This document shows, in pieces, positions 4,586-21,389 of a stretch of 61,036 nt of DNA. Each line of letters starts with the position of its first letter. Within the stretch, counting starts at the first letter, position 1. The stretch comes from Myxococcota bacterium (GTDB lineage Bacteria > Myxococcota_A > Bradymonadia > UBA7976 > UBA1532): contig CAUJDF010000072.1 of NCBI GenBank assembly GCA_963169045.1, positions 1 to 61,036 on the forward strand. The letters run 5' to 3'. The position numbers and the translations under genes were made by a program. The notes beneath the pieces are model-generated. The model had not been told where the DNA came from. It saw only the letters and a program-made list of their open reading frames with translations, and did not search any database.

Positions 4586-5506
4586 CTATCCCAGGAGCGC
4601 GGTGAGCAGCGACGGCGGGACGACGACCTCGGCGACGCGGGCGCGGTCGAGGGGGCCGATGCGGAAGCGCGGGCCGGCGGCTTCGCTCGCGGGCTCGAGG
4701 CTCGACTCCACTTCGGCGAGCAGGGTGGTCTCGCTCGCGCGCAGCGCGCCGCGCCACTCGGCGAAGGCGTCCTCGCGGGACGAGACGACGATGGCGTGGG
4801 TGCAGCGGTTGAGGATCGCCTGATTCTTGCGGTCGATGCGGCCGCCGCAGTCGACGAGGAGCAGCGTCTTCTCGCGGCGCAGGGCGTCGAGCTGTTCGCA
4901 GACGCGATGGACGAAGGCGTCGTCGAAGCGGTTCTTGTAGCGGAGCGTGCGGGCGTCGTCCGCGGCGTCGGCGTACCAGTCGCCTTCGCCGTCCGGGCAG
5001 GCGCGCAGCACGAACACGTCGCGCTGGTAGGGGGCGGCCGTCAGCGTCGCGCGGAGCGCCTGCCGTAAGGCGCCGACGAGGACGGTCTTTCCGCTGTGGG
5101 GTGGCCCCAGGAACGCGACGACCTTGCCCGCCGGCGCGGCCGCTTCGGGCCGGGCCGGCGCGACCGACGCGTGGCGCGGGAGCCACGGGCGGAGGCGCTC
5201 CGGCGGCAGGATCGCGCCGACCGGCATCGCCTCCGGCACGCGTGTGGCCACGACCACGGCGCCCAGGCGCGGATCGGTGGTCGCGGTCCAGGCGGCGTCG
5301 CGGCAGAGGTCGACCAGGCGCCCGTACAGCCAGATCGGCGCGCGTCCGTTGACGACGAGGCCCCGGTGCGGATCGGGCGGGCGCGGGAGGCGCACCGCCG
5401 AGAGCTCGCTGGCGTCGATGAGTCCGTTGCCGTCGAGGAAGACGTCGAGGACGTCGAACGCTCCCGGTGTCGGGACGACGGTCAGCCGCAGATTGGAGTC
5501 GGTCAC
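4586..5506 (-). CDS. csx3: Csx3 (Crn3)-AAA ATPase fusion
   Basis: A 306-residue fusion. Residues about 1-100 are a Csx3 domain ('NGRAPIWLYGRLVD', 'DPRLGAVVVAT'). Residues about 125-300 are a P-loop ATPase with Walker A 'GPPHSGKT' and a Walker B-like 'TLLLVDCGGRID'. Csx3 (Crn3) proteins bind or degrade cyclic tetra-adenylate and so damp type III CRISPR signalling; Csx3-ATPase fusions are a known but poorly understood variant. The Asp and Arg of the DPRLG motif are kept, but the position corresponding by eye to the catalytic His of Archaeoglobus Csx3 is Asp here ('CRDAAW'), so ring-nuclease activity is uncertain. GTG start overlaps the RT gene stop (GTGA), with GGAGGA upstream. The 4415-4585 gap behind it holds nothing recognised. 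Confidence 0.85.
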   Translation of the reverse strand: MTDSNLRLTVVPTPGAFDVLDVFLDGNGLIDASELSAVRLPRPPDPHRGLVVNGRAPIWLYGRLVDLCRDAAWTATTDPRLGAVVVATRVPEAMPVGAILPPERLRPWLPRHASVAPARPEAAAPAGKVVAFLGPPHSGKTVLVGALRQALRATLTAAPYQRDVFVLRACPDGEGDWYADAADDARTLRYKNRFDDAFVHRVCEQLDALRREKTLLLVDCGGRIDRKNQAILNRCTHAIVVSSREDAFAEWRGALRASETTLLAEVESSLEPASEAAGPRFRIGPLDRARVAEVVVPPSLLTALLG

Positions 5507-8500
5507 ACGTCCTCCGTTCGTTCGAGCCGGAAGCGCGGCGGCTGGCCCGGCTGCCGGACGAGGGTGGCGCCGCGGACCGGGACCCGGTCGGTGCCCGCGC
5601 GCTCGAAGAGGGCGTCGAGGTCCCGGGTCGCCCGCTGAAGGCCGCGCTCCGCGTTGGCGAGGGCCTCGCGCAGTCGGCCGATGCGGTCGAGCGCCCGCTG
5701 GAAGTCGGCCGACGTCGGTCCATCCTGCGTGGGTCGCGCGTCCACGCCGCTGGCGACCGGGGCCGGTCGCCCCCGGGCGGGCTCGACGGCGACCGGCGCC
5801 GCGGCGCCCGGCTCGGCGGCGATCGTCTCGGCGCGGCTCGCTGCGCGGGCGTCGATGGTCGCCGGCTGCGTCGCGTCCTGGGTGACGGGCGGTGTGTCGA
5901 GCGCGAGTCGCGGCAGAGCGCCTGCGGGCGCGGTGTCCGGTGCCGGGTGGTCCGGCAGCCGCGCGCCGGCAGGGTCCTCGGGCGGCGCACCGGCCGGCGC
6001 GGCCGCGGCTCCGGGGCGCGGCGCGGGCGCCGGTCCGGTGGCGCGCCGTCGGGCGTCCATGCGCTCGCGGAATGCGGGGATCTCGTCCGGCCGCATCGCG
6101 TGCAGCAGCGGCGTGGGGTACGCGCCGCCCCACAGGCCGCGGAAGCGGCAGTCGCAGCCCACCTCCCGCGTGACCGCCGTGTGCCGCTGCGCCAGGCGGG
6201 CGCAGCTCGCCGGGAACGGCGGCAGTCGCTCGAGCCGCGTGCGCACGAGGCGCGGATCGCCGGGGAGCAGCGCGCACAGCGTCGGCTCCGTCTCGCCACG
6301 CGGCAGGTGGCCCAGGACCTCCACCAGGCTGGCCCGCTCCTCCGTCTCGAGGTGGCCGAGGCGCTCCGCCTTGCGCGCCAGCGCGCGCAACACCGCGCAC
6401 CCGGTGAGCACCCGCGTTGCGGTCGGCTGTTCGGCGAGCCGGGCGAGCACTTCGCTCTCGCGCCGCTGGACGACCTCTGGATGCTGGTGGCCGCGCCGCA
6501 CGATCGCCGTGACGCGGCGCACGTCGGCGCGCTCGGCGCTCCGGAGGACGGCGAGCGGCTGCGCGAGCGGCAGGCCCGCCGCGTCGAGCCACGTGGACCG
6601 GCGGCCGGTGCGCGGGTGGACGCCGAGCGGCAGCCACGCGTGCGGTCCGGGGGCGCGTCCCGGCCGGTCGCTCGCCGGCAGCCACGAGACGCCGAGGCCC
6701 TCCGGCGCCGGTCCTGCCTCTTCGGCGAGGCGCGTCAGCAGCTCGCGCGCGTGCCGCATCGGCAACGGCCCGTCGAAGAGGAACCAGAGGCGGTGCTCGC
6801 CGCCCCCCGTGTCCTCGAGCAACGAGGCGAGCCCGTGCCGCCGCGCCGCCCGCGACCAGGCGCCCAGGTGGTCGACGGCGCGGCGCGTCCAGGCGCGCCA
6901 GGCGGCGACGACCTCCGCGCCGGTCGCGTCGTCGCGCGCGACCCACGGCGGCAGGGCCACCGTCCGGCGCACCCGCGTCTCCACCACCGCGAAGCGGACC
7001 GTCGCGTCCTCGCGCACGAGGTAGACGCCGCGCCGCGCTTCGCCGGCCAGGTGCCGCGCGATGCCGGCGCCGTCGAGCGGACCCGGCGTGTCGGCGGCCA
7101 CGTGGTGCGCGCCCTTGTCGCGGCGCTCGACGGCGTGGCGGTCCCGTCGCCCGGCGAAGCACGCGCCGATCGTCTCGAGGTCGGCGTCGCTCGCGGCGAC
7201 CTCGGCCTGGCGCCTCTCCGGTCGGGCGGATCCGGCGAGCGCGCGCGCCGCTTCGGCCAGCGCCAGCGCCCCCGCCTGCGCGAAGGCGCGCGCCGCGGCG
7301 GCCCAGTCGGCCCGCAGCGCACGCACGGCGGCCACCGGAACGGCGAGCACCTCGGCGATCGCCTGCTCGCGCCGGCCGTCCGCCGCCAGCGCGTGGCGCG
7401 CCTCGACGAGCGCCGCCGCGTCGCCGTCGGGCCCGCCGAGCGCCCGCCAGGCCCCCACGAGGGCCGCGCCGACGTCGTCCGCCGCGCCGGGCGCGTCCGC
7501 GGCGCCCGGTCCGCCGACCGCGCCGGTCCCGCCCGCGGCGCCCGGTCCGCCGACCGCGCCGGTCCCGCTCGCGGCGCCCGGACTGCGGACCGCGCCGGTC
7601 CCGCTCGCGGCGCCCGGACTGCGGACCGCGCCGGTCCCGCCCGCGGCGCCCGGACTGCGGACCGCGCCGGTCCCGCCCGCGGCGCCCGGTGCGCCGCCCC
7701 CGTCGAGCGTCGCGCCCGGCGCGAGTGTCGCCATCCCGGCGAGCGCGACACGCCGCCGCGCGAGCGCCGCGTCCGGCCGCCGCCGCAGCAGCGCCCACAG
7801 CACGAGCGGGTGCTCCACCTCCTCGGCGAGCAGCGGCCCGTACCAGCGCTCCCACTCCTCGACCAGCGCCGCGACCCGCCCCGGCGCCGCCGCCGCCCGC
7901 ACCGCCAGCGCCGCGTGCGCCGCCGCCGACGGACGCCGCCCCCGTTCATCGAAGCGCGCCCCCAGGAACACGAAGCCTTCGCGCAGGTGGCCGCGCGTCG
8001 TCTTGCGGTCGTTCAGCCGCAACCCCAGCGCCTCGACCTCGGACGTCAGCAGGCCGAGCGCGTCCGTCGCCTCCTGCGGCGTCTCGGCCAGCGCCAGCAC
8101 GTCGTCGGCGTAGCGCAGATATGCGAAGCCCGCCGCCGTCAGCGCCGCGTCGACCGGCCGCAGGTACACGTTCGACAGCAGGGGCGACAGCGCGCTGCCC
8201 TGCCCGATGCCCTCGCCGGGTTCGTCGAGCACGGCGCCCTCGATCGCGCCGGCCGAGAGCAGGCGTCCGATCAGGCGCACGATCGGCGGATCGATCCCGT
8301 CGGCGGCGAGCGTCGCCAGCAGCCGGTCGCGGTCGATGCGGTCGAAGAACTTGCGCACGTCGGTGCGCACGAACCACGTGCGTCCCTGGCCGAGGTGCCG
8401 GTCGACCTCGCCGAGCGCCATCGCGACGGAGCGGCCCGGGCGGTACGCGTACGCGGCGTCCGACAGCGTGGGCTCGTAGTGCGCGTTCAGGACCACGGCG

Positions 8501-8769
8501 AGTGCGCGCTGGACGACTCGGTCCTCGACGGCGGCGACCACGATGCGGCGGTCGGGGTCGTCGAGAAGGCGCACGCGCCGCCCCGGACGCGGCCGCCACG
8601 TGCCGTCGAGGAGCGACCGCGACAGCGCCGCGAGACGGGTCCGGGCGTCGCGCGCGTAGCCTTCGACGGTGAGGCCGTCGACGCCGGGGCCGGCGCCGCG
8701 CCGCTCCACCCGCCGCCACGCGTCGTCGAGCACGCCCGCCGATGCCACTTGTGCCATCAGCCCTGCCAT
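5503..8769 (-). CDS. Reverse transcriptase fused to a CRISPR-associated primase-polymerase-like domain
   Basis: A 1088-residue fusion. Residues about 10-330 are a group II intron-like RT: 'RTDVRKFFDRID' (metal-binding Asp), 'GIGQGSALSPLLSN' and catalytic YADD at 220-223. Residues 360-427 are a 12-residue repeat linker. Residues about 525-760 match the AEP primase-polymerase fold of CAPP/TOTE-type proteins ('RRGVYLVREDATVRFAVV', 'GGGEHRLWFLFDG'). A C-terminal zone has four spaced cysteines ending in 'GCDCRF' at 871-876, like the Fe-S region of these primases. An Ala/Pro tail and a short coiled coil follow. The expected DxD metal motif reads Val-Glu-Thr-Arg at about 596. RT/CAPP genes are linked to spacer capture from RNA, but no cas1 or cas2 is adjacent. 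A second ATG lies at 8757. Confidence 0.85.
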   Translation of the reverse strand: MAGLMAQVASAGVLDDAWRRVERRGAGPGVDGLTVEGYARDARTRLAALSRSLLDGTWRPRPGRRVRLLDDPDRRIVVAAVEDRVVQRALAVVLNAHYEPTLSDAAYAYRPGRSVAMALGEVDRHLGQGRTWFVRTDVRKFFDRIDRDRLLATLAADGIDPPIVRLIGRLLSAGAIEGAVLDEPGEGIGQGSALSPLLSNVYLRPVDAALTAAGFAYLRYADDVLALAETPQEATDALGLLTSEVEALGLRLNDRKTTRGHLREGFVFLGARFDERGRRPSAAAHAALAVRAAAAPGRVAALVEEWERWYGPLLAEEVEHPLVLWALLRRRPDAALARRRVALAGMATLAPGATLDGGGAPGAAGGTGAVRSPGAAGGTGAVRSPGAASGTGAVRSPGAASGTGAVGGPGAAGGTGAVGGPGAADAPGAADDVGAALVGAWRALGGPDGDAAALVEARHALAADGRREQAIAEVLAVPVAAVRALRADWAAAARAFAQAGALALAEAARALAGSARPERRQAEVAASDADLETIGACFAGRRDRHAVERRDKGAHHVAADTPGPLDGAGIARHLAGEARRGVYLVREDATVRFAVVETRVRRTVALPPWVARDDATGAEVVAAWRAWTRRAVDHLGAWSRAARRHGLASLLEDTGGGEHRLWFLFDGPLPMRHARELLTRLAEEAGPAPEGLGVSWLPASDRPGRAPGPHAWLPLGVHPRTGRRSTWLDAAGLPLAQPLAVLRSAERADVRRVTAIVRRGHQHPEVVQRRESEVLARLAEQPTATRVLTGCAVLRALARKAERLGHLETEERASLVEVLGHLPRGETEPTLCALLPGDPRLVRTRLERLPPFPASCARLAQRHTAVTREVGCDCRFRGLWGGAYPTPLLHAMRPDEIPAFRERMDARRRATGPAPAPRPGAAAAPAGAPPEDPAGARLPDHPAPDTAPAGALPRLALDTPPVTQDATQPATIDARAASRAETIAAEPGAAAPVAVEPARGRPAPVASGVDARPTQDGPTSADFQRALDRIGRLREALANAERGLQRATRDLDALFERAGTDRVPVRGATLVRQPGQPPRFRLERTEDV
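7502..7690 (-). repeat. 36-bp in-frame tandem repeats in the RT-primase linker
   Basis: Five consecutive 36-bp units run from 7502 to 7681, plus a partial sixth. They translate to the 12-residue unit Pro-Gly-Ala-Ala-Gly/Ser-Gly-Thr-Gly-Ala-Val-Arg/Gly-Ser/Gly. There are no spacers and the unit is a multiple of three, so this is a flexible coding linker between the RT and primase halves, not a CRISPR array. Copy-number change would alter linker length without breaking the frame. Confidence 0.85.
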
Positions 8770-8823
8770 GCCACTCGTTGTCACACGGCGAAGAGCGCGG
8801 CGCAACGGTCGGCGGAGGGCGGG

Positions 8824-11271
8824 ATGAGCGACGAGCGACGGGGACTGCGGGGCATCGGCGCCGACGGCGCGGTGGTGTGGCTCGTGCCGGACGGCGGCGC
8901 GGTCGAGCAGGGCGCGCACACCGTCGTCCACGTACCGGCGCGCCTGCCGGACGCCCGCGCCTGGCTCGGCGCCTCGCCGTTGGCCAGGCTGCGGGCGCCG
9001 GTCGCCTGGGAGGCCGCCGACGCCTGGTCGGCAGTGTTGCTCGCGCTGCCCGAGCTGCGCGCGGGGGCGCCGCGCGCGGCCGAGCCGGCGGATCCCTCCC
9101 CGCGGGAGCTGCTGCGCCTCGCCGAGCGCGCCGCGAGCTGGCACGGCGCGGAGCACCGGGAGACGCGCCGCGCGCGGGACGAGGCGCTCCGCCGCAACGA
9201 CGCCGCCGACGTCGAGCGCGCGATCGCCCGCGGCGCGCGCTCCCGCGCCCTGCTGCAGCGTCTGTACGACGTCGCGCTCGCGCGGGGCGCCGGTCACCCG
9301 GAGGTCACCGAGGCGCGGCGCCGCTTCGAGCGCGAGTTCCGGTACCTCACCCGCGAGGCCGACAAGCAGGTCTCCGCCGCCGACGCCGCCCGGCGACGCC
9401 GCGCGGTGACCACCTCGAGCGTGCGCGCCGGCGACGTCCCCCGCGAGATCCACCGGCTCGCGCCCTCGCCGGCGTGGACGCTGCTCATCGACGAGACCGG
9501 CCGCCGCTTCGCCGAGGAGGACGACGGCCCCGAGGGCCGCTTCGTCGGCCTGCTCGTGCCGGAGGGCTGCGCCGTGACGCCGCCGCCGCCGGGCTTCCAC
9601 GCCGTCGACGCGGACGCCGCGACCAACGACCGCGTCGTCCAGGCGGTGCTCGACGCGCCGGTGGGCGTCTTCGGCGTCGGCCTGTCGGCGGTGCCGCCGG
9701 CTCCGGGCGACCGCTGGGTCGCCGGCGTGCTCGAGGTCGTGCACTGGGTCCTGCGCCTGCTGCCGGTCCACGGACGCACGCGGCTGGACGTGCTCGTCGA
9801 GCAGCGGGGCGCGCACCGCGCCCAGGCCGACTGGCAGGCCCTCGTCACCGAGGCCGGCCGTCACCTCGCCGAGATCAACCCCGCCCGCTATCGCCAGATC
9901 GCGCTCGACCTGCGGGTCGTCGCCAAGGACGCGCACCCGCTCAACGGGAGCGTCGACGCGCTCGCGTTCATGTGGGGCAGCCGGGCGCCGGCGGCGCGCG
10001 CACGCCTCCGGCAGAGCGGCCTGACGGACGGCTGCCTCCACGGCGGCAGCCCGGTCGTGCTGCGGCGCGCCTGGGACCTGCTCGGACGCGGCACCGCGCT
10101 CGACGGCGCCACGTGGGCGGAGCTGGCGTGGCATCCCGACGCCGGTGGCATCGCCGGCCTGCTCCTGGACCAGGTGGGCGCCGCCGCGCGCGAGGACGTC
10201 GCGTTGTGGAGCCGCTATCTCGACGCCGCGGTCGACCACCTCGAGAGCAAGGGCGTCCGCATGGGCGCGCTCGGCCGACAGGTGGCGTGGCTCGAGGCGT
10301 GGCAGCCGCAGGGGGCGGTCCTGCCGCCGAAGCTCCGGCTGGCCTGGCTCGTCGCGCGGCTCGAGCACGACAACCACCTCGGCGCCGTCGACGGCGAGGT
10401 GCTGGCGGAGCTCGAGTCCCTCGGGGCGCGACTCTTCGACGAGGCGCCGGCGCTCGTGTGCCAGGCCGACCTCGACCGCGCGGTCCTGGCGACGAACCGC
10501 TTCGACTTCGCGGGCGCGACGGCGGCCCTGGCGCGCTTTGCGGACGTCCCGCCCGCGGTGCCGGGCCTCCAGCACTGGGGCCGGGTGCGCAGCTCGCTCG
10601 GGCAGCACGCGGCGTTCCGCGGGGAGCCGGCGAAGGCCGAGGTCCACTTCACCGAGGCCGTGGCGGCGTTCGCGCGCCTGTCCGACGAGCGCGTCGCCGC
10701 GGGCGAGGTGCGCCACACCGCGACCTACCGCGCCTTCGCGGCGCTCGACCGGCGCGACCTCGGCGCGGCGGCGCGGCGCGCCCTCGTCGCGGCGGTGGTC
10801 GACCTGACGCCCGACGCGATCGCCGCGCTGGCGCGGTCCGTCGAGCCGGCGACGCGGCACGGGCACCACCTGCTCGTCCGCTACCTTTGCGAGCACGGAC
10901 GCCCCGACGAGGTCGACGCCTACCTGGGGGCGCGACGGGACTGGCGCGTCGGGGAGGGCCACCCGTGGGCGCTCATCCGCGCAGGGAGGGCGGTGCTGCT
11001 GGCGCCGCGCGACGCCGCCGCCGCGCGCGAGGAGATGGCGCGCGCCGCCTCGCTCGCCCTCGACGGCGGGCCCACGCTGTGCTTCATCGGCGCGGCGCTG
11101 GCGATGGTCGCCGCCCGCTGGGGCGCGCCGCCGGCGGTGGACGCAGCGCTGCTCGACGAGCTCGCGGCCCTGCTGCCGGGCGCGCCGGTCGACGCGCTGC
11201 GGCGCGCCCTCGCCGGCGAGGGGTCGCCGCTCGCCGCGCTGCGGACGCTCCTTCCGTTCAACTTCCGCTGA
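8824..11271 (+). CDS. DUF3800/RNase H-like plus TPR protein of the CRISPR locus
   Basis: An 815-residue protein, no named family certain. Residues about 215-385 look like a DUF3800-type RNase H-fold nuclease: strand-plus-Asp 'WTLLIDETG' (Asp near 221), 'LDVLVEQRG' (Glu near 326) and 'SVDALAFMWGS' (Asp near 378), matching the spacing of DDE-like RNase H families. Residues about 430-815 are Ala/Leu-rich paired helices resembling TPRs. The first 200 residues are helical. It starts at ATG 8824 behind GGCGGAGGGCGGG and is divergent from the RT-primase gene across only 54 bases, suggesting shared control. It may process nucleic acid for the RT-primase, but that is inference from fold and position. 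Confidence 0.6.
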   Translation: MSDERRGLRGIGADGAVVWLVPDGGAVEQGAHTVVHVPARLPDARAWLGASPLARLRAPVAWEAADAWSAVLLALPELRAGAPRAAEPADPSPRELLRLAERAASWHGAEHRETRRARDEALRRNDAADVERAIARGARSRALLQRLYDVALARGAGHPEVTEARRRFEREFRYLTREADKQVSAADAARRRRAVTTSSVRAGDVPREIHRLAPSPAWTLLIDETGRRFAEEDDGPEGRFVGLLVPEGCAVTPPPPGFHAVDADAATNDRVVQAVLDAPVGVFGVGLSAVPPAPGDRWVAGVLEVVHWVLRLLPVHGRTRLDVLVEQRGAHRAQADWQALVTEAGRHLAEINPARYRQIALDLRVVAKDAHPLNGSVDALAFMWGSRAPAARARLRQSGLTDGCLHGGSPVVLRRAWDLLGRGTALDGATWAELAWHPDAGGIAGLLLDQVGAAAREDVALWSRYLDAAVDHLESKGVRMGALGRQVAWLEAWQPQGAVLPPKLRLAWLVARLEHDNHLGAVDGEVLAELESLGARLFDEAPALVCQADLDRAVLATNRFDFAGATAALARFADVPPAVPGLQHWGRVRSSLGQHAAFRGEPAKAEVHFTEAVAAFARLSDERVAAGEVRHTATYRAFAALDRRDLGAAARRALVAAVVDLTPDAIAALARSVEPATRHGHHLLVRYLCEHGRPDEVDAYLGARRDWRVGEGHPWALIRAGRAVLLAPRDAAAAREEMARAASLALDGGPTLCFIGAALAMVAARWGAPPAVDAALLDELAALLPGAPVDALRRALAGEGSPLAALRTLLPFNFR

Positions 11272-11600: not shown

Positions 11601-13013
11601 TCAGCCGCCGCCGGCCAGCGGGACGAAGTCGTAGACGGGATCGGCGTCGGCGGGCGCCTCGCGTCCGTCGGCTGCGGCGACGGCGCGCGCGTGCTCGAGC
11701 ACGACGGCCCGGAACTGGTCGAGCTCCCGCGCCTCGAGCGTGCGGAAGCCGTGGGCGAGGATGCTCTTGTTGCGCCCATTGAGCAGGCCCTCGAACCTGG
11801 CGTCGCCCACGTCCCTCAGGCCGGCGAGCACGGGATCGCCGAGCGCGCGCAACAGCGTCCGCGTCTGGGACAGCGCCAGCTTGTCGGGCAGCAACGCGAG
11901 GCGGTGCTCGGGGCGGCACGCGGCGTTGTAGCGCTCGAGCAGCGCCGCCGGGGCGTCCGGTCGGACGTCACCGACGTCGATGCCGTGGCGCGCCGCCAGC
12001 CGCTGGAGCGAGAGCTCGAGGCAGCGATACAGCAACAGCGCCGCCAGGTCGGGCTCGCGCTCGCTGCGCCGGCGCGCGGTCGCCAGCAGGAAGCGCGACA
12101 GCGCCTCGACCAGGTCCGCGTCGAACGCGGGCCGCGCGGCGCGGTCGGTGGCGCGCCCGAGCAGCGCCAGCGCCTCCGCCTGCCGATCGAGGCGCGCCGT
12201 CGCGTCGAGGAGCGGCTCCTTCGGGAGCATGCGCCGGGAGGCCCGCCCGAGGTCCTGCGCCACCTCGCGGACCGCCCGCTCTGCCTCGCCGAACCGCAGC
12301 GCGGACCAGGCCGCGTACGCGCCGCAGAGCCGCGCGCGGGCGCCGAAGTGGAAGCCGGGCGCCCGCGCCGCGTCGAGGCCGCGGAAGAGCCGCTCCGCCA
12401 CGTCGAAGAGCCCGCGGTCGAAGGCCCGCTCCGCCTCCACGCGCTCGAGATCGCCGAATACCACGAGCGGGTGTTCGACGACGTGCGCGCGCTCGAGCCC
12501 GAACCACGGGAACGCGCGCGAGATGCGCTCCGACTCCACGTAGATCTGGCGAAGGCGCAGGTAGCCGGCCACCGTCGACGCGCCGGCGGTCATCGCCTTG
12601 GTGCCGGACGTGAAGTCGATGGTGATCGCCTCGCCGGCGTGCCGCTCCACGATGTCGCGGATGGCTTCGTACACCGCGACCGAGTCGGCCTTGCCGACGT
12701 GCCGCGTCCGCACGTCGCGGTCGCCGGCGAGCGCGAGCGCCCGCGCGACGCTCGCCGCCGACTCGTCGGTGTGCACCAGGTACACGACCCGGGCCGGCGT
12801 GCGCGTCAGCGAGAGCGCCACCGAGTAGGGCTGCGTCCCCACCGTCGCGACCAGCACGTCGACCGGCTCCGCCTCGGCCGCCATCGCCGCGAGCGCCGCC
12901 GGAAAGTACTCCGCCTCGTAGCGCCGCGCCGCCTCGTCGGCTGTCTCGGCCTCACCCACGCGCGCCGCCGCCAGGGCCCGCCGTCGCAGCGCGTCCTCGT
13001 CTCGCAGGTTCAT
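11601..13013 (-). CDS. CARF-HEPN ribonuclease (TIGR02710-like CRISPR ancillary protein)
   Basis: A 470-residue cyclic-oligoadenylate-activated RNase candidate. The CARF Rossmann domain covers about 45-200: 'VDVLVATVGTQPYSVALSL', then 'VYLVHTDES', then the ligand-loop motif 'DFTSGTKAMTAG' near 133-144. The C-terminal half is helical and ends in a HEPN domain with the RNase motif Arg414-Asn ... His421 ('GRNKSILAHG', Rx6H). This order and the 'TSGTKAM' motif match the TIGR02710 family of type III accessory proteins. The ATG at 13013 has GGGAGG upstream. It is transcribed away from the cmr operon, sharing a 106-base divergent promoter region with it. It would cut RNA non-specifically when Cas10 makes its cyclic messenger. 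Confidence 0.85.
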   Translation of the reverse strand: MNLRDEDALRRRALAAARVGEAETADEAARRYEAEYFPAALAAMAAEAEPVDVLVATVGTQPYSVALSLTRTPARVVYLVHTDESAASVARALALAGDRDVRTRHVGKADSVAVYEAIRDIVERHAGEAITIDFTSGTKAMTAGASTVAGYLRLRQIYVESERISRAFPWFGLERAHVVEHPLVVFGDLERVEAERAFDRGLFDVAERLFRGLDAARAPGFHFGARARLCGAYAAWSALRFGEAERAVREVAQDLGRASRRMLPKEPLLDATARLDRQAEALALLGRATDRAARPAFDADLVEALSRFLLATARRRSEREPDLAALLLYRCLELSLQRLAARHGIDVGDVRPDAPAALLERYNAACRPEHRLALLPDKLALSQTRTLLRALGDPVLAGLRDVGDARFEGLLNGRNKSILAHGFRTLEARELDQFRAVVLEHARAVAAADGREAPADADPVYDFVPLAGGG

Positions 13014-13064
13014 GGGTCCTCCCATCTTTCTTGGTGGTCCCATCGTATTCGCACAACTTCGCGA

Positions 13065-13094
13065 TTGACACACGGAGACGTCCCGCGTTGGAAT
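13065..13094 (+). promoter_or_regulatory. Sigma-70-like promoter of the cmr operon
   Basis: A perfect TTGACA at 13065-13070 is followed 18 bases later by TGGAAT at 13089-13094. This lies 26 bases before the first gene of the operon and inside the divergent gap to the CARF-HEPN gene. Clean TTGACA boxes are rare in this GC-rich window. Confidence 0.5.
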
Positions 13095-13119
13095 CGCCGC
13101 CACAACGGGGGAGGGCACG

Positions 13120-13767
13120 ATGGCTTCGAAGAACCAGGGAGCGTACGGGGGCAGGGTCAGCCGCGGGCGGTACGTGGCGCGCCGACTCAAGACCGCAGGC
13201 CAGCAGCAGCGAGCCGCGGACCTGCTCGCGCTGGCGCTCGCCGCACGCGCCGCCGGCCGGGCCTGGGAGGACGCGCACGACCCGGTCGACGACGCGCTCG
13301 CGGACCGCGACGCCGCCGACCTGGCCCTCGACACCGCCGCGCAGGAGGCCCGCTTCGGCCTCGCGTCGCGCGGCATGCACGCCACCCGCGAAGCGCCCTA
13401 CACCGACATCTTCCCCGACGGCATCGACCCCTACGTCAGCGCGCCGCTCGACCAGCAGGCGCCGCGCTACCGCGACCTCCTCCGCCGCGTCGCCCTGCAC
13501 CTCGCCGCCGACGACGCCGTCCGCGTCGCCCTCGCCCCCCGCGTCGAAGCCGGCCTCGCCGCCTGGACGGCGGCGTGCGACCGCCTCGAAGCCGCGCGCG
13601 CCGAGACGGCGCTCGCCCGCGGCGCGCTCGAGAAGGCCGTCGACGCGCTCGACCGCCAGCTGCAGAAGACGCGCGCCGCGCTGACCGTCGACTTCGACGC
13701 GCGCACGGCGGCCAGCTTCTTCCCGAAGACGAAGGCGAAGGCGACGGGGGCGGCCGAGGACGCGTGA
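13120..13767 (+). CDS. Coiled-coil-like protein leading the cmr operon
   Basis: A 215-residue Ala-rich helical protein, not recognised. Residues about 1-70 are basic then helical, the middle contains 'YTDIFPDGIDPYVSAPL', and residues about 130-190 form a continuous amphipathic helix likely to be a coiled coil. There is no signal peptide or membrane segment. It starts at ATG 13120 behind GGGGGAGGG, 26 bases downstream of a good promoter, and ends 38 bases before the HEPN-NTPase gene. Its place as first gene of the operon suggests a role in this CRISPR system, for example as a partner or inhibitor of the HEPN-NTPase, but no function can be read from the sequence. Confidence 0.65.
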   Translation: MASKNQGAYGGRVSRGRYVARRLKTAGQQQRAADLLALALAARAAGRAWEDAHDPVDDALADRDAADLALDTAAQEARFGLASRGMHATREAPYTDIFPDGIDPYVSAPLDQQAPRYRDLLRRVALHLAADDAVRVALAPRVEAGLAAWTAACDRLEAARAETALARGALEKAVDALDRQLQKTRAALTVDFDARTAASFFPKTKAKATGAAEDA

Positions 13768-13805
13768 CGCAGCCTGCCGGCGCCGTCCGGGTGAGGTGAG
13801 AGCTC

Positions 13806-15575
13806 TTGGCATCGGGCAACCCTGAGACAGAGATGACGGACGACGTCCTGCGAGAGCGGTTCGTCGTCTACGGAAGAGACCTGGCTCGCGATCTGCGACC
13901 GGCGCCCGACGATCACCTGTTTCGCCTTCTCTTCCGAGCCATTCGGGGCCATCACGAGCTCTGGCGGGCTTCGGGGCGTCGCGCGATGGTCGGCATCGCC
14001 GCCGGGTTGCGGTCTCGGATTCCCGACAGCGAGCAGAAGCACGTTCGCGCCTGGATCGCGCTGTTCGAGCCGATGGTCCGTCGCCTCTGCCGCCTCGGCG
14101 GAGTCAAGGCGGCGGAGACGGACAACCTGGGGGACGTCATGCGGCTGGCGGGCGTCGAGCGCCAGTACGGCGGCGGCGATGCCGCGCTCGCCGGCGCTCT
14201 CGGCGTCGCGCGATTGCAAGCCACGACGGATCGCGAGCTCGAGTGGCTGCTGGCCGTCCAGGCGCGCCGAACACGCAACGAGCTCGCGCACGCTCGCCTG
14301 GATGTGTTGTCCTGGCGTCGACGCGTCGAGGTCACCGAGGCCATCGTCGTCACCCTCCTCCGCCTTCTCCAGTCGCGGCGTGATCGCATCGAGCAGGCGC
14401 TGCTGTGGGAGGAGCTGAGGCCGACGTCCGCGGCCGGCACCGACATCGACTGGGCATGGGCACCGACCGGGCAGGATGAGGTCACGACCGGTTCCTCCGC
14501 CGCCTTCGCCCGCGCGCTCATTCACCTCCTGGGAGATAGGCGGGTGGTGGTGCTCCAGGGCACACGCGGCGTCGGCCTCACCCACTTCGCGCTGACACTG
14601 GCCGCGGTCGGCATCGCCGATCGGGCCTTCGTATTCATGAGACTTCCGCTCGACGAGCCGGAGCCGATCGATCGTGACGAGGGTGACGACGCGCACCTCG
14701 GCGCGCTGGTCGGTTCGAGCCAGGCGCGGCAGGAGTGGTTCCGGAGCGCTCTTCGCCAGCGCCGTCTCGTCCTCGTGGTGGACGGGCTCGGCCGTGTGTC
14801 ATGGCCCCGGTTCGTGCGCGAACGCCAGGAGATGGAGCGCGCCTTCGCCAGGCATCCCGGGCTGCGCTTCGTCCTGCTCGTGGCGGATGGCAGCGAGGTG
14901 ATGGCGACTCCGCATGCGCTCGGGACGCTCGGACACGCGGCGACGCACGTGCGGACTCTGGCGCGGCGATGCAACGTCGACGAGCTGCCGCCGACCATGT
15001 ATCTCGGCTACTGGATCCGGCAACTGACGCCTCGGGTGCGCGAGGCCCTCGGCTCCAAGCCGGACGCGGCGACGGTCGTGCGCTGCATCGTGCGCGAGGG
15101 CCTCGGCCCGAGTCATCCCGAGCGGTGGCTGGCGCTGGAGCCGCCCCTCCGGCGGCCGGCGGCGGCCTGGATCGCAGCGCGAACGCTGCACCACATCGCC
15201 CGGATGCTCGACGAGGTCGCCGACGGGGATGCCGTCAGCGTCGCGATGGCGCAGCGCTCCGTCTACACGGCCGCGGAGGCGCTGCGCGGCGACGCCACCG
15301 GACCGCTCGCGGACAAGCTCGACGATGCCGTCCTCGCGGCCCTGGTCGACGCCGGGCTGCTGCGCTCCGCGGGCGAAGAGGCATACGCCATCGCGCACCC
15401 GGACCTCGAAGCGCAGGTCTGGGACGAAGGCTTCGCCGGGTGGACGCTCGCGGGCTTCCTCGGATTGAGCGAGGAAGAGCGCCATGCGCCCTGGGCGTCC
15501 CTCAGCGTGGTGTCCGGTCACGACACGTCCATGCGTCTCGATGATGAAACCGAAATCGCGGGAGTGCTCGCGTGA
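13806..15575 (+). CDS. HEPN domain fused to a P-loop NTPase with degenerate Walker A
   Basis: A 589-residue protein in the cmr operon. An N-terminal helical domain carries a HEPN RNase motif: 'RRTRNELAH' gives Arg157-Asn ... His162 (Rx4H). A P-loop fold follows, with 'VVVLQGTRGVGLTHFA' at about 247-262, where the Walker A Lys is replaced by Leu258. A Walker B-like 'LVLVVDGLG' has Asp326. Helical and winged-helix-like C-terminal regions complete a STAND/NACHT-like layout. There is no CARF domain, so it is not an obvious cyclic-oligoadenylate effector. The start is TTG 13806 (GAGGTGAG upstream) or ATG 13833. Its stop overlaps the cmr1 start. An RNase held by a nucleotide-sensing switch is a reasonable inference. 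Confidence 0.7.
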   Translation: MASGNPETEMTDDVLRERFVVYGRDLARDLRPAPDDHLFRLLFRAIRGHHELWRASGRRAMVGIAAGLRSRIPDSEQKHVRAWIALFEPMVRRLCRLGGVKAAETDNLGDVMRLAGVERQYGGGDAALAGALGVARLQATTDRELEWLLAVQARRTRNELAHARLDVLSWRRRVEVTEAIVVTLLRLLQSRRDRIEQALLWEELRPTSAAGTDIDWAWAPTGQDEVTTGSSAAFARALIHLLGDRRVVVLQGTRGVGLTHFALTLAAVGIADRAFVFMRLPLDEPEPIDRDEGDDAHLGALVGSSQARQEWFRSALRQRRLVLVVDGLGRVSWPRFVRERQEMERAFARHPGLRFVLLVADGSEVMATPHALGTLGHAATHVRTLARRCNVDELPPTMYLGYWIRQLTPRVREALGSKPDAATVVRCIVREGLGPSHPERWLALEPPLRRPAAAWIAARTLHHIARMLDEVADGDAVSVAMAQRSVYTAAEALRGDATGPLADKLDDAVLAALVDAGLLRSAGEEAYAIAHPDLEAQVWDEGFAGWTLAGFLGLSEEERHAPWASLSVVSGHDTSMRLDDETEIAGVLA

Positions 15576-16960
15576 ACAATCCGCCGAAGCGTCCGCCCTT
15601 CCTGCCCGACTACGCGCGGGTCGTCCCACCGTCCTCGATCGTGAGCTGGACGCTCCCGCTCGAAGTCGTCACGCCCCTCTACGGCGGCGGCCCCCGGCCG
15701 CGCGACGTCGATCGCGCCACGCCCGTCCGCGTCTCGGGCGTCCGCGGGCAACTGCGCTTCTGGTGGCGCGCGCTGTTCGCGGGGCAGCTCCGCAACCCGC
15801 GCGCGCTGTATCAGCGGGAGCGCGAGCTGTGGGGCGGCCTGGGCGCGAACGCCCGGGAGGTCTCGTGCTCTCGCGTCTCGATCGCCGTGTCGGTCACGAA
15901 GACGACGTCGACCGAGAGCAGCGACGTCACCATCGGGCAGCCCGACGCTTACGCACTCTGGCCGGCGCGCGAGACCAACGAGGCCAGGGCGGCGGTCCGC
16001 TTCCGGCCGGGGCTCGCCTTCGACCTCGAGGTGCGCGTCGACGGCGCTTCGCCGAAGGACGTGGCCGAGGTGCGCGGCGCGCTGCGCGCATGGCTGCTCT
16101 TCGGCGGCGTCGGCGGTCGTACGCGGCGCGGTTGCGGCGCCGTCGCGCTGTCGACCCCCGCCGGTCGGGCGGAGTGGCTGCCCGAGCGGCTCGATCCCGA
16201 CTCCGTACGCGGCTGGCTGTCGCCGCATCCTTCGGCGGGCAAGGGCTTTCCGTCCCTCGCCGGGGCGGGCCTGTACGTGGGGGCGACGACGCCGGGCGCG
16301 GCGCCGGCATGGCACGCCGCGCTAACGTGGCTGCGCGACTTCCGGCAAGGCACGAATCCGCGTTCGACCGACGTCGCCGCTGCGGGCGCATTCGCGCGCC
16401 TGCGGCCCTCGCTCCAGCCGGGCGCGGCGGGGCGACCGGGTCGCTCCCGCTGGCCCGAGCCGGACGTGGTGCGCAACGCCTTCGGACCGCGGTTTCACGA
16501 CCACGTGCCGCAGATCAAGACCGACGACCGCAGCTGGCCGCGCGCGCAGTTCGGACTGCCGATCCAGATGCAGTTCCAGCGCAATGCCCGGCCCGGGGCG
16601 CAGCCATATCCGAACCAGCCGCCGCCGCGCCTCACCGTGGGGTGGCGCCCGAACGGCGACAAGGACAAGGTCAGTCAGCGCCTCGCCAGCCCGCTGATCG
16701 TGAAGCCGGTGCAGACCCGCACGGGACACTTCGTGTCGGCCGCGCTGTGGCTCGACCGCACGTTGCCCGCCAGCGCCCAGGCGGGGCGCGTCGATCGCGA
16801 ACGGCGCGACGAGCCGCAGCTCGACGCCCGCACCACGGCGCCGATGAGCCGGATGCCGGCGGCGCCGCTCTTCACGCCGCTCGCGGGCAAGACATCGGTG
16901 CGCGATGCCTTCTGCGACTGGCTCGTCGCCACGCACCGGCTGAACGGAGGGACGCTGTGA
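15572..16960 (+). CDS. cmr1: Cmr1 (Cas7-type subunit of type III-B effector)
   Basis: A 462-residue RAMP protein. Diagnostic motifs are 'LEVVTPLYGGG' near residue 30, 'VRVSGVRGQLRFWWRALF' near 52-68, and the glycine-rich loop 'GGVGGRTRRGCG' around residue 180. Cmr1 caps the head of the Cmr filament and contacts the 3' region of the crRNA-target duplex. The second half contains 'FGLPIQMQF' and 'ASPLIVKPV', also typical of the family. It starts at GTG 15572, overlapping the NTPase stop by four bases, and its own stop overlaps the cas10 start (GTGA). The neighbours give a complete cmr1-6 set. Confidence 0.92.
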   Translation: MNNPPKRPPFLPDYARVVPPSSIVSWTLPLEVVTPLYGGGPRPRDVDRATPVRVSGVRGQLRFWWRALFAGQLRNPRALYQRERELWGGLGANAREVSCSRVSIAVSVTKTTSTESSDVTIGQPDAYALWPARETNEARAAVRFRPGLAFDLEVRVDGASPKDVAEVRGALRAWLLFGGVGGRTRRGCGAVALSTPAGRAEWLPERLDPDSVRGWLSPHPSAGKGFPSLAGAGLYVGATTPGAAPAWHAALTWLRDFRQGTNPRSTDVAAAGAFARLRPSLQPGAAGRPGRSRWPEPDVVRNAFGPRFHDHVPQIKTDDRSWPRAQFGLPIQMQFQRNARPGAQPYPNQPPPRLTVGWRPNGDKDKVSQRLASPLIVKPVQTRTGHFVSAALWLDRTLPASAQAGRVDRERRDEPQLDARTTAPMSRMPAAPLFTPLAGKTSVRDAFCDWLVATHRLNGGTL

Positions 16961-18885
16961 GCCAGACCCTGCTCGTGCTGGCCCTGGGCCCCGTCCAGGA
17001 CTTCATCGAACGCGCGCGTCGCATGCGGGACCTGTGGTTCGGCTCGCACATCCTGTCCGAGCTCTCGCGCGCCGCGGCGAAGCGACTCGCCGAGGAGCCG
17101 GGGTGGACGCTCGTCTTCCCCGCGCTCGACCTGGGCGACGTCGAGCTCGATCCGTGTCTCGGCATGCGTCGCGCGGATGGCAACCCGCCGCTCGGCATCG
17201 TCAACAAGGTGCTGGCGCTGGGTCCGGCCACCGACGACGCGGCGGTGGAGCTCCTCGCCGCCGCCGCTCGGGGGAAGGCGATCGACGTCTGGAAGGACTT
17301 CGCCCGGCAGGCGGCGGGGCGGGCGAAGGACCTGATCGCGCGCGACCTCCGGCCGGAGGAGACCCCCGAGGGCGTCATCGAGTCGCTCATCGAGGTCTAT
17401 GCGAGCTGGACGTCCGTCGTCGCGCCCGGCGATTTCGAGCGGGCGCGCCAGGACGCCGAGGAGGCCCTCGCCGCGCGCAAGCGACTGCGAGATTTCTCGC
17501 GCTGGCCGTGCGGCGGTCCGTATCCGAAGTCGAGCCTCGACGGGTGCCGCGAGAGCATCCTGGTCGACCGCGCCATGCGACCACGCGTCGAGAGGCCGCG
17601 GAAGAGCGCCGGCGACCTTCGCCTCGATGAGCGCGAGCACCTGGACGGCGTCGCCTTCGTGAAGCGGGCCGGCGGCGAGCCCGATCAGTTCGTGCCGGTG
17701 GCGCGTGTCGCCGTCGAGCCGTGGCTCGCGGCGGTGCAGCGGGCCGCGGTCGCCTCGCCCGCCGTCGGCCAGACGCTCGCCAACCTCGAGAAGGCGTGCC
17801 GCGAGCGCCGCGTCGCGCGGTGCAGCGCCGACGCCGCGGCGTGGCTCCGGGGCGGCTTCGTGTTCGACGGCGAGCTCTTCTTCGAGGGCCAGTGGCAGAA
17901 CATCGAGCTGTCCGGCGAAGGCGACGCGCCGACGGCGTTCTGCCGCCGGTTCGTCGGACCGCTCTTCACCCGGCACCGGTTCCCGGCGCCCTCTCCGTAT
18001 CTCGCGTGCCTGAGCGCGGACGGCGACTCGATGGGCGCGGCGCTCTCGACCCTCGGCTCGGCCGACGAGCACCGCGCCGTCTCGCGCGCGCTCGCGGAGT
18101 TCGCCCGCGGCGTCCGCGCGATCGTGGAGGGCCACGCCGGCGTGCAGATCTACGCCGGGGGCGACGACGTGCTCGCCTTCGTCCCTGTCGACAGCGCCGT
18201 GCAGTGCGCCGACGACCTGCGCCGCGCCTTCCACCGGACGCTCGCGACGGCGTTCCCCGGGCAGGACGCGGCGCCCACCCTCTCCGTCGGCCTCGCCATC
18301 GGCCACACGCTGACGCCGCTCGGTGAGCTCGTGGGCCGCGCCCGCGACGCGCTCCATCTGGCGAAGGACGGCGACGACCTGCCGCCCGGCGATCCGCGCC
18401 GCCGCAACGCGCTCGGGGTGATCAGCGACAAGCGAAGCGGGGGGGAGACCGCGTGGCGCTGCCAGTGGACGGCGCCCGATGACGGCAGCCGCCCGGTGCA
18501 GCAGCTGGAAGCGCTGCGCGATCTGATGCTCGACGGCCGGATGCCACGCCGGCTGCCCTATGAGCTCCGGGAGGTGCGGGAGCGGATGCACGGGCTCTCC
18601 GACGAGGACCGAGTGCTGGGGCCGGCCTTCCGGCACGAGGTGGAGCGGGTGATCGCGCGCAAGCGTCCCGATGCGTCCATGCCGAAGGGCGCGCCGAAGC
18701 CGGACGCCAAAGCGTTCGGCCTCGAGCTCCCGGCGCCGAACGACTCGGGCGCAGGCAAGGTGCGCGACGCCCTGGACGAGTGGGTGAGGCGGGCCGAGGT
18801 GGCGATGATCCTGGCCGACGCTCGGCGGAACATCCGCGCCGTGGCGCGGGCCCTTCAGCGCAGTGCGGCGGAGGCGGTTCAGTGA
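16957..18885 (+). CDS. cas10: Cas10/Cmr2, large subunit with cyclase palm, no HD domain
   Basis: A 642-residue Cmr2. It begins directly with the first palm domain ('LGPVQDFIERARRMRDLWFG'), so the N-terminal HD nuclease domain found in many Cas10 proteins is absent. The first palm's Asp pair is in 'SADGDSMG' near 354, and the second palm has an intact GGDD at 401-404 ('YAGGDDVLAFVP'). Target RNA binding should therefore switch on cyclic oligoadenylate synthesis but not HD-dependent DNA cutting. A C-terminal helical D4-like domain follows. GTG start overlaps cmr1 by four bases and the stop overlaps cmr3. The two CARF proteins and Csx3 in this locus are the expected readers of its product. Confidence 0.93.
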   Translation: MSQTLLVLALGPVQDFIERARRMRDLWFGSHILSELSRAAAKRLAEEPGWTLVFPALDLGDVELDPCLGMRRADGNPPLGIVNKVLALGPATDDAAVELLAAAARGKAIDVWKDFARQAAGRAKDLIARDLRPEETPEGVIESLIEVYASWTSVVAPGDFERARQDAEEALAARKRLRDFSRWPCGGPYPKSSLDGCRESILVDRAMRPRVERPRKSAGDLRLDEREHLDGVAFVKRAGGEPDQFVPVARVAVEPWLAAVQRAAVASPAVGQTLANLEKACRERRVARCSADAAAWLRGGFVFDGELFFEGQWQNIELSGEGDAPTAFCRRFVGPLFTRHRFPAPSPYLACLSADGDSMGAALSTLGSADEHRAVSRALAEFARGVRAIVEGHAGVQIYAGGDDVLAFVPVDSAVQCADDLRRAFHRTLATAFPGQDAAPTLSVGLAIGHTLTPLGELVGRARDALHLAKDGDDLPPGDPRRRNALGVISDKRSGGETAWRCQWTAPDDGSRPVQQLEALRDLMLDGRMPRRLPYELREVRERMHGLSDEDRVLGPAFRHEVERVIARKRPDASMPKGAPKPDAKAFGLELPAPNDSGAGKVRDALDEWVRRAEVAMILADARRNIRAVARALQRSAAEAVQ

Positions 18886-20135
18886 AGCGCTCGATCGTGT
18901 TGTGCCCGCGCGACGGGCTGAGCCTGAAGGACGCCCGCAGCATGTTCGTCGCCGGCGGGATGCCCTCCCGAGGCCTGTCGTGGCTCACCCCGACGACGAC
19001 GGCGGGCGCCGCGCGGGCGGTGGCGGGGCGCGCCCTCGGCTACGAGACGACCTACGGCGCGGACGTGGAGCGGTGGCGTCGGCTCGCCACCGACGTCGAC
19101 GTGCGCGGTCCGCTGGCGGTCGTGCGCGCCCTCGACGACGCCGCGCGCTGGCAGCCGCTCTGGCCGGCGCCCCGCGACGCGGTGCGCAAGCCCGCGGTGG
19201 ACGCGCGCGGCCGGCCGTGCGGACGGCTCGAGTGGCTCGAGCCGCGCCCGCGCGAGGACCTGCGCGCTCGTGTCTGCGCCGTCGGCGCGACGGACGGCGT
19301 CGAGCGGGACGCCCTCGAGTCGATGTTGCTCCCGCGGCTCGACGAGCGGGAGAAGCCCCTCCCGGCGCTCCCCTGGTGGTCGCACGACGAGCTCGTGGCC
19401 TGGCTGCGCGATCCCCGGCCACGCAATGAGTCCGCCGCCGGCGCCGTCCCGGTGATGCGTCCGGACGTGCACGTCGCCATCGACGCGGAGAAGGACGCGG
19501 CCGCGGACCAACATCTGTTCTCGCTGCCGACGCTCGAGACGCTCGTCATGAAGCGCCATGGCGCGTCGGCGTTCGAGGTCGGCGTCGCCCTGACGGTGGA
19601 GACGAGGGACCTCGCCGGGGACCTCGAGCTGGCGGGTCTTCCGTGGCGGGTCGGCGGCGAAGGGCGGTTCGCGTGGAGCGAGACGCTGCCCGACGAGGTG
19701 CTGGCCGCCCCACAGAGCCTGCTGCGCGCCTGGACGGACACGCGGTTCCTGCGTCTGTGCCTCGTGACGCCGGCGCGCTTCGACGCGGGGTGGCGCCCCG
19801 ACTGGCTCACCCCGGTCAAGGGCGCCGACGGCGCGCGTTTCGAAGGCGAGATGCCGGGGACGAAGAAGCGTGTCGCCCTCCGCGCGGCGTTCGTGGACCG
19901 CCCGCAGTGGATGAGCGGCTGGAACCTCGCCCTGCGCGAGCCCAAGCCCTCCCACGTCGCGGTGTCGGCAGGGGCCGTCTATTACTTCGAGGCGCTCGAC
20001 GGCGCGGCCTTCGCCGCCGGCGACGTCGAAGCGCTCTGGCTCGCGAGCATCCAGACCCGGGGGACGGTCGAGGCACGCGACGGGTTCGGTCTCGTCGTGC
20101 CGGGCGCCTGGCCCTCTCGCTCTTCCAATCGCTGA
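18882..20135 (+). CDS. cmr3: Cmr3 (Cas5-type subunit)
   Basis: A 417-residue Cmr3. Family-like features include the N-terminal strand 'IVLCPRDGLSLKDARSMF', the early 'SRGLSWLTPTTTAGAARA' region and the central 'DVHVAIDAEKDAAADQHLF'. The C-terminal stretch around 'ALWLASIQTRGTVEARDGFG' contains the glycine-rich closing loop. Cmr3 binds the 5' handle of the crRNA and holds Cas10 on the filament base. GTG start at 18882 overlaps the cas10 stop by four bases. A 19-base gap then separates it from cmr4, the widest gap between cmr genes in the operon. Confidence 0.88.
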   Translation: MKRSIVLCPRDGLSLKDARSMFVAGGMPSRGLSWLTPTTTAGAARAVAGRALGYETTYGADVERWRRLATDVDVRGPLAVVRALDDAARWQPLWPAPRDAVRKPAVDARGRPCGRLEWLEPRPREDLRARVCAVGATDGVERDALESMLLPRLDEREKPLPALPWWSHDELVAWLRDPRPRNESAAGAVPVMRPDVHVAIDAEKDAAADQHLFSLPTLETLVMKRHGASAFEVGVALTVETRDLAGDLELAGLPWRVGGEGRFAWSETLPDEVLAAPQSLLRAWTDTRFLRLCLVTPARFDAGWRPDWLTPVKGADGARFEGEMPGTKKRVALRAAFVDRPQWMSGWNLALREPKPSHVAVSAGAVYYFEALDGAAFAAGDVEALWLASIQTRGTVEARDGFGLVVPGAWPSRSSNR

Positions 20136-20154
20136 CCCGACACGGAGACCAACC

Positions 20155-21018
20155 ATGCAACGTGCCTACATCGTCCATGCCTTGTCGCCCCTCCACGCCG
20201 GCACCGGGCAGGCACAGGGCGCGATCGACCTGCCGATCGCCCGCCTCCGTGGGACGGGCATCCCGTACCTGCCGGGCAGCTCGGTAAAGGGCGTCCTGCG
20301 CGACGCGTCCAGGCCCCGGTCCGCATCCGAAGACGACGGCGCCGTTCACGCGGCGTTCGGTCCCGACGTCCCCGATGAAGAGAAGCGCTTCGCGGGCGCG
20401 CTGACGTTCGGCGACGCCCGCCTGCTCGCGCTGCCCATCCGCAGCTTCAAGGGGACGTTCGCCTGGGTGACGTCGCCGCTCCTCCTGCGGCTGGCGCGGC
20501 GCGATCTCGCCTGGACGCTCGACGTCCCGCGGCTGACCGCGTCGACGAGCACGCTGCTGACCAGCTCGACGGTGCTCGAGGCCAACGGCCACATCTTCCT
20601 CGAGGAGATGGAGTGCAAGAAGCACCCGGCCCCCGGCGACCTGGTCGATCGATGGGCCGCGAAGATCGCCGCGGCGGCGTTCGCTGGCGACGAGGAACTG
20701 TTCACCGAGCGGTTCGCCATCGTCGACGACGAGACGATGTCTCATCTGTGGGTGTGTTGCACCCAGGTTGACGCCCGCGTGCGCATCGACCGGGAGCGGG
20801 GCGTCGTCCAGGACGGGGCGCTCTGGTACGAGGAGAGCCTGCCCGCGGAGACGCTGCTCGTCGGCGTGGCCGTCGCCGCGGAGAAGCGCCAGGGGCACGA
20901 GGGCGCGGCGCTGCTCGATCGCTTCGTCGGGAAGCACCGCGACGACCTTCAGTTCGGCGGCAAGGCCACCGTCGGCCGTGGACGGGCGCGATTCCTGCCC
21001 GTCGTGGAGGCGCAGTGA
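20155..21018 (+). CDS. cmr4: Cmr4 (Cas7 backbone, target-RNA nuclease)
   Basis: A 287-residue Cmr4. The N-terminus shows the full signature: 'LSPLHAGTGQAQGAIDLPI' followed by 'TGIPYLPGSSVKGVLRD'. The Asp in 'AIDLPI' (Asp25) corresponds to the catalytic Asp that cuts bound target RNA at 6-nt intervals, so slicing should be intact. Later motifs include 'FGDARLLALPIRS' and the glycine-rich 'FGGKATVGRGR' near the C-terminus. Several copies stack to form the filament backbone. Its stop overlaps the cmr5 start (TGATG). Confidence 0.95.
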   Translation: MQRAYIVHALSPLHAGTGQAQGAIDLPIARLRGTGIPYLPGSSVKGVLRDASRPRSASEDDGAVHAAFGPDVPDEEKRFAGALTFGDARLLALPIRSFKGTFAWVTSPLLLRLARRDLAWTLDVPRLTASTSTLLTSSTVLEANGHIFLEEMECKKHPAPGDLVDRWAAKIAAAAFAGDEELFTERFAIVDDETMSHLWVCCTQVDARVRIDRERGVVQDGALWYEESLPAETLLVGVAVAAEKRQGHEGAALLDRFVGKHRDDLQFGGKATVGRGRARFLPVVEAQ

Positions 21019-21389
21019 TGAGGACGCTCGACCAGCGGCGCATGACGGTCGCGCACAACGCATTCCTTCCACTCTCGGCCGCCGACCGCAAGCTGTGGGA
21101 GGGCCTCGTGAACGGCCTCGGCGCCGAGGTGCAGCGCTGCGGCCTGCTGCAGGCGCTCGCCTTCCTGCACCGCCGGTCGTCGGAGCGCGAGAGGGAGCTC
21201 GTCGGCACCTTGTGCACCCTCATCGCCCAGCACCTGAAGCAGATGCGCCACCTGACGGACGAGCAGAGCCGCGGGCCGCTGCTGACGACCGTGCGCGACC
21301 TGCCGGTGGACGCCTACATGCGCGTGACGCGCGAGGTAATCGAGCTGTCGGTCTGGTTGAAGCGATCCGCGCAGATCGGAGTCGGCTGA
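21018..21389 (+). CDS. cmr5: Cmr5 (small subunit, Cas11)
   Basis: A 123-residue all-helical protein of the size and position expected for Cmr5. The start 'MRTLDQRRMTVAHNAF' is typical of the family, which begins with a helix containing Q-R-x-A. Several copies line the inner side of the Cmr filament and guide target RNA. ATG 21018 overlaps the cmr4 stop; a GTG at 21015 in frame is a less likely start. Its stop overlaps the ATG of cmr6. Confidence 0.88.
   Translation: MRTLDQRRMTVAHNAFLPLSAADRKLWEGLVNGLGAEVQRCGLLQALAFLHRRSSERERELVGTLCTLIAQHLKQMRHLTDEQSRGPLLTTVRDLPVDAYMRVTREVIELSVWLKRSAQIGVG

Follow-up and report, generated by a model that had tools for sequence, protein, structure and literature searches.

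A CRISPR-associated family of RNase H-fold TPR proteins with putative links to cyclic-oligoadenylate signalling at type III loci

Introduction

A protein that carries TPR and DUF3800 parts has been described together with Cas12a2, and its AlphaFold model has an RNase H fold (PMC10910872). That study also reports, as a separate matter, that RNaseH genes occur in linkage with adaptation modules. A DUF3800 RNase H-fold nuclease is also listed for some VI-F and V-A2 loci (PMC12669027). These two papers were the only ones found on DUF3800 and CRISPR in a search of the main texts of openly accessible papers. For type III systems, neither RNase H nor DUF3800 occurs as a term in an effector survey (PMC11229360), and we found none with an RNase H fold among the ancillary nucleases of these systems in the published surveys searched.

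Here we describe a protein of this general kind from a type III locus. Its gene lies in a 61,036-nucleotide stretch of contig CAUJDF010000072.1 of a Myxococcota bacterium, hereafter the window. The protein resembles the TPR-DUF3800 proteins of Cas12a2 (V-A2) and VI-F loci in joining TPR to a DUF3800-like RNase H-fold domain at a CRISPR locus, the TPR part having been reported for Cas12a2. Compared by description, the two groups differ in that the known proteins have been reported for class 2 loci, whereas the family presented here occurs at type III loci, with one member fused to Csx1 and another to Csx20. The literature searched yielded no type III example that has these fusions, although an earlier mention is possible in subscription papers or supplements. 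The family also resembles the type III cyclic-oligoadenylate (cOA) effectors (Csx1/Csm6, Can1/2-Card1, Cad1, Cami1) in its type III loci, in its pairing of a nuclease with a sensing module and in having one Csx1-fused member, but most of its members carry no recognisable CARF domain.

Results

The gene and its family

The gene (Table 1) starts with ATG, just 5′ of which lies GGAGGGCGGG. Its GC content by codon position (0.84/0.55/0.97) is what a genuine gene of a GC-rich genome would show. Because the opposite strand is also open in one frame, openness alone is little proof of the gene; rather, it is established as real by 15 homologous proteins that share 33-49% identity in the core.

Table 1. 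Coordinates of the TPR-RNase H gene, its parts and its neighbours in the window
Feature	Position	Strand	Basis or remark
TPR-RNase H protein gene, whole feature, 815 aa	8824..11271	+	ORF reading and homologs
Variable N-terminus, residues 1-89	8824..9090	+	modelled with low confidence; matches no family
Helical linker region, residues 90-203	9091..9432	+	helices 93-200 in model
RNase H-fold nuclease domain (predicted), residues 205-425	9436..10098	+	modelled alone
D223 and E224 codons, motif LIDETG, strand 1	9490..9495	+	invariant 16/16
H259 codon, invariant	9598..9600	+	family alignment
E326 codon, VEQRG, end of strand 319-326	9799..9801	+	invariant 16/16
K368 codon, invariant	9925..9927	+	family alignment
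D378 codon, VDALAF helix	9955..9957	+	invariant 16/16
TPR solenoid, residues 426-815, conserved LPFNFR-type C-terminus	10099..11268	+	model and alignment
Divergent start region, 54 bases, common to RT-CAPP and TPR-RNase H gene	8770..8823	.	
RT-CAPP (reverse transcriptase and AEP primase), divergent neighbour	5503..8769	-	
Csx1-type CARF-HEPN effector ORF, convergent neighbour	11601..13385	-	gene probably starts well within the ORF
cmr1-cmr6 type III-B effector cluster	15572..22573	+	Cas10 palm domain; other cmr genes by eye
Second CARF-HEPN (Csx1/Csm6-like) effector	22510..24060	+	

The window protein matches nothing in Pfam, NCBIfam or PADLOC, save a sub-threshold hit to Sec2p in Pfam. Relatives were found by homolog search and then with profiles; a contig scan with the single protein gave 0, and one with an alignment gave 8. 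The 15 full or partial homologs come from Myxococcota (G004, G015, G138, G141 and a Sandaracinus MAG), from Chromatiales and their kin (Thiocapsa imhoffii, Thiorhodospira sibirica, G389, G392, G432, G433, G500 and the PL23b MAG), from one Oceanospirillaceae MAG and from one unplaced bin. The searches run on plasmids and viral contigs returned no relatives. Seven residues (D223, E224, G226, H259, E326, K368 and D378) are identical in the window protein and all 15 homologs, and the last residues, which resemble LPFNFR, are also strongly conserved. These proteins make up a genuine, CRISPR-associated family that combines a predicted RNase H fold with TPR, which spans Myxococcota and Gammaproteobacteria and is missed by Pfam, NCBIfam and PADLOC.

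Two further kinds of protein were also observed. A relative with the TPR part but without the nuclease domain (G138:C237, L027 9482-11197, minus strand) has no CRISPR gene seen adjoining it. Moreover, a second, convergent paralog (L009 11996-14440 and L065 15259-17700, both minus strand) carries YIDEA, AEA and YADLLAH motifs and a homologous TPR end.

Predicted fold and relation to RNase H and DUF3800

In a full-length AlphaFold2 model built from a nine-sequence alignment (pLDDT 80.9, pTM 0.61), the N-terminus is poorly resolved and is followed by helices, then by an alpha/beta domain and finally by a long solenoid of helices. The solenoid (residues ~426-815) matches TPR proteins in VIA-align with Z up to 18, the matching part being placed at residues ~458-815; the Pfam TPR match to a relative is sub-threshold. 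Because Foldseek and VIA searches with the whole model were swamped by TPR matches, the alpha/beta domain was folded alone (pLDDT 85, pTM 0.87). RNase H2/HII proteins are the best Foldseek matches of this isolated domain in the PDB (E 6e-5 to 6e-4), and its VIA-align superposition on RNase HII (1eke) covers 155 residues at 3.1 A (Z 11.7). The PDB chains that VIA-align lists are overwhelmingly RNase H2, H3, H1 or Argonaute. In a comparison with predicted structures of viral proteins, one of the best named fold matches is a DUF3800 protein (E 7e-5).

On the strength of this model, the catalytic domain is predicted to belong to the RNase H fold superfamily, and D223, E224, E326 and D378 are conserved acidic residues that form a putative metal site. 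The first-pass annotation, made from the letters alone, had pointed to Asp/Glu/Asp residues, a helical repeat region at the C-terminus and an RNase H-like domain of the DUF3800 type. The first two are present as the invariant residues and the TPR solenoid, and the RNase H fold appears in the predicted domain. A DUF3800-like signature is present, in that motif, fold and a weak profile score place the protein close to DUF3800, but the Pfam HMM (PF12686) gave no match at E up to 10 and 1. The order of motifs, DE(T/S)G ... H ... VE(Q/N)RG ... K ... D, is that of the collected DUF3800 proteins, whose DE(S/T)G, VE(N/Q)RG, K and (x)xD motifs follow one another in the same way. In hhalign comparisons with DUF3800, most alignments gave P of about 0.005-0.05 with a reported probability of only 1-7%, yet this weak profile score was still above all 100 column-shuffled controls, and E326 and D378 align with the E and D of DUF3800. 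Given the motif order and a weak score above the shuffles, we call the domain DUF3800-like and not a member of Pfam DUF3800. The window protein also exceeds that family in length, its linker and TPR adding about 600 residues.

RNase HII/RNase H2 provides the nearest solved fold and likewise has an adjacent D-E pair on strand 1. Even so, the RNase HII profile comparison did not score above shuffled controls, and the DEAGRG motif is absent. A housekeeping RNase HI or HII identity was ruled out by sequence and context.

N-terminal fusions to cOA-pathway proteins

The N-terminus, residues 1-89 of the window protein, is replaced in relatives by a Csx1 CARF-HEPN part, by Csx20 or, possibly, by a cold-shock-like domain. 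In the G015 homolog, Csx1 CARF-HEPN (PADLOC 1.5e-101; HEPN motif RNGFDH, by eye), linker, nuclease and TPR lie in one uninterrupted frame of 1,274 residues. In the G141 homolog, the N-terminus is Csx20 (PADLOC 1.8e-23), fused in frame to the nuclease-TPR core. That Csx20 is a ring nuclease which degrades cA4 has been confirmed by experiment (PMC12409355). The two fusions lie on different branches of the family tree, whose deep branching is only partly resolved. The N-terminus is thus a swappable module that was twice drawn from the cOA pathway. Only the G015 fusion, through Csx1, has a cOA-binding domain in its own chain, G141 carrying Csx20; in the window protein PADLOC and Pfam recognise none, and its first ~90 residues model poorly. 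The cold-shock-like N-termini of some Chromatiales are weak matches (Pfam CSD E 0.21; UNR E 0.3) and were not relied on.

Genomic context

The window locus is of type III-B, given its cmr1-6 cluster with a Cas10 palm domain (17998-18372) and its two CARF-HEPN effectors. No Rfam match occurs anywhere in the window. Context was counted over twelve family members, window included, that have enough flanking DNA or a fusion, and ten of these are CRISPR-linked through nearby cas, cmr or CARF genes, through arrays or through fusion. The window locus contains cmr genes, and in Thiorhodospira cmr genes adjoin the family gene, with cas6 and a downstream array of 86 repeats also found there. G015 is linked through its Csx1 fusion. 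Thiocapsa has cas6, a CARF-adenosine deaminase gene and an array; G433 has cas6 and a CARF-adenosine deaminase gene; G432 and G389 each have cas1 and cas6; and G392 has cas6 and repeats on both sides of the gene. The Oceanospirillaceae locus contains cas1, cas2, a CARF-PDDExK gene and an array, and that of G141 contains CARF-HEPN and a further CARF-like gene, cas6, a CAPP primase and cas1. The flanking stretches read for G004 and G500 hold no cas gene. By a rough estimate, cas6 would be expected within 10 kb of a random gene in well below 1% of cases.

The type III setting of the first-pass annotation is therefore borne out, and the family recurs at type III loci as an ancillary protein. A strong Cas10 (PF22335) match was seen in only 8 of the 16 carrier genomes, partly owing to MAG incompleteness, and so co-occurrence at the genome level is not proof of a type III link. 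In the order of Thiocapsa, such a match was present in 4/7 carriers vs 69/210 genomes overall.

Discussion

We put the probability at roughly 0.5 that the protein is a type III CRISPR-associated nuclease of the cOA signalling branch. It is probably an unrecognised part of the CRISPR alarm pathway and not a helper of the neighbouring reverse transcriptase (RT). This reading is based on the architecture, the modelled fold, the invariant active-site residues, the CRISPR linkage and the two in-frame fusions to cOA-pathway proteins. CARF genes also neighbour it repeatedly: two CARF-HEPN genes lie in the window, Thiocapsa and G433 each have a CARF-adenosine deaminase gene, and the Oceanospirillaceae locus has CARF-PDDExK. 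Counting against it are the absence of a recognisable cOA-binding domain from the window protein and of cas genes from the G004 and G500 stretches, as well as Cas6 or Cas1 at several loci, which fits roles in crRNA production or adaptation.

In this view, a variable module at the N-terminus, acting as sensor or adaptor, is followed by the helical linker and by an RNase H-fold domain of DUF3800/RNase HII-like type, which would hold a D-E/E/D metal site, and the TPR solenoid would provide a docking surface for a partner. We infer that the protein acts in the cOA response and that a CARF effector either activates it or serves as its docking partner. At the window locus this might happen in trans, with the product of the convergent CARF-HEPN gene or of the second one in the same locus, and in the G015 fusion it might happen in cis through Csx1. 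Nucleic acid would then be cut by two-metal catalysis. RNA or an RNA:DNA hybrid would be the likeliest substrate because RNase H2 is the nearest fold, although Argonaute, integrases and RuvC have this fold as well. Perhaps the TPR region holds the nuclease inactive until the signal arrives. More tentatively, the family might constitute a new class of type III effector, in which an RNase H-fold nuclease is switched on by cOA, either in trans together with separate CARF proteins or, for the Csx1-RNase H-TPR fusion, in cis, and possibly destroys RNA:DNA hybrids of replicating or transcribed invaders. If true, the cOA response would extend to a new catalytic fold, with the Csx1 fusion as a ready test protein, and a connection would arise between type III immunity and the TPR-DUF3800 proteins that occur, so far unexplained, at Cas12a2 and VI-F loci.

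The first-pass annotation had instead read the protein as an RNase H that serves RNA-derived spacer or cDNA handling beside an RT-primase. The neighbour is indeed an RT-primase (RVT_1 5e-26, AEP-TOTE 2e-13), and exactly 54 bases separate its ATG (8769, minus strand) from that of the TPR-RNase H gene (8824, plus strand). Removal of RNA from the RNA:DNA hybrids of this enzyme during spacer acquisition from RNA would suit the nearest fold, RNase H2, which acts on such hybrids, and also the CAPP and Cas1 genes near the G141 homolog and the Cas1 genes that G432, G389 and the Oceanospirillaceae have at distances of up to about 10 kb. However, among the 12 contexts an RT adjoins the gene only in the window, a CAPP primase adjoins it in one other locus (G141), and none of the Cas1 genes near the family is RT-fused in the loci read. 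Genetic linkage to an RT is not conserved as a general rule. CAPP-type primases, counted with PF22548, occur somewhere in the genome in 3/5 Myxococcota carriers and in 36/374 non-carriers, but this enrichment is based on small numbers, and shared type III loci would be an equally good explanation of it. Furthermore, no cas1 occurs in the Thiorhodospira stretch, where the gene has cmr genes and an array for neighbours, the primase half of the window RT-CAPP lacks the DxD motif, and the fusion partners belong to the cOA pathway. The gene instead adjoins or is fused with CARF/Csx20, Cas6, Cmr and arrays. We consider the adaptation role unlikely for the family, although an RT-linked use could still be local to the window locus.

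It is also rather unlikely that the protein processes or turns over crRNA or array transcripts in company with Cas6 and type III complexes. Cas6 lies within about 10 kb in seven relatives, arrays directly adjoin the gene in Thiorhodospira and G392, and crRNA biogenesis or degradation has been proposed for the TPR-DUF3800 protein at Cas12a2 loci (PMC10910872). Such a role leaves the Csx1 and Csx20 fusions unexplained, however, and no Cas6 was seen near the window gene. Another signalling scheme is suggested by a set of p138, sigma-like, p468 and CHAT-like genes that adjoins the gene in four Chromatiales loci (p138 detected in 3/4), in which the TPR part would serve as scaffold or as substrate of the protease, with the nuclease as output. 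We view membership in such a CHAT-protease/sigma-factor-like cassette as improbable, since the window, Thiorhodospira and the Myxococcota loci lack the set and its members, named by eye, have no Pfam match beyond weak TPR. A catalytically dead RNase H-fold adaptor, for which the TPR-only relative might serve as a precedent, is very unlikely because the acidic residues are all invariant.

Other features of the loci

Within the window RT-CAPP, the primase (AEP) half appears catalytically degenerate, in that VETR aligns with FDLD of the G141 CAPP motif I and the DxD is gone; the YADD motif of the RT is intact. Between the convergent CARF effector and cmr1 (13120-15575, plus strand) lie genes for proteins of 215 aa and 589 aa with no Pfam match, the larger of which looks like a STAND-type NTPase. 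The left end of the locus (946-3144, plus strand) holds genes for a transposase and a TniB-like ATPase, recognised by eye.

The Chromatiales cassette (L009 3628-8521, L065, L067 and L068) is conserved beside the gene, its sigma-factor-like protein being ~310 aa and its CHAT-like protein ~750 aa. With names given by eye, its layout resembles the type III-E CHAT/Csx30/sigma cascade. A JAB-ThiF (E1-like) protein, also recognised by eye, is encoded near the family in L009 (17385-19488), with equivalents in L065, L068, L069 and L070. It mostly occurs with a UBL/E2-like protein, and the two might form a ubiquitin-like conjugation pair in CRISPR islands. Finally, a Lon-protease-like ORF (by eye) lies downstream of the G004 homolog (L005 17637-19277, plus strand).
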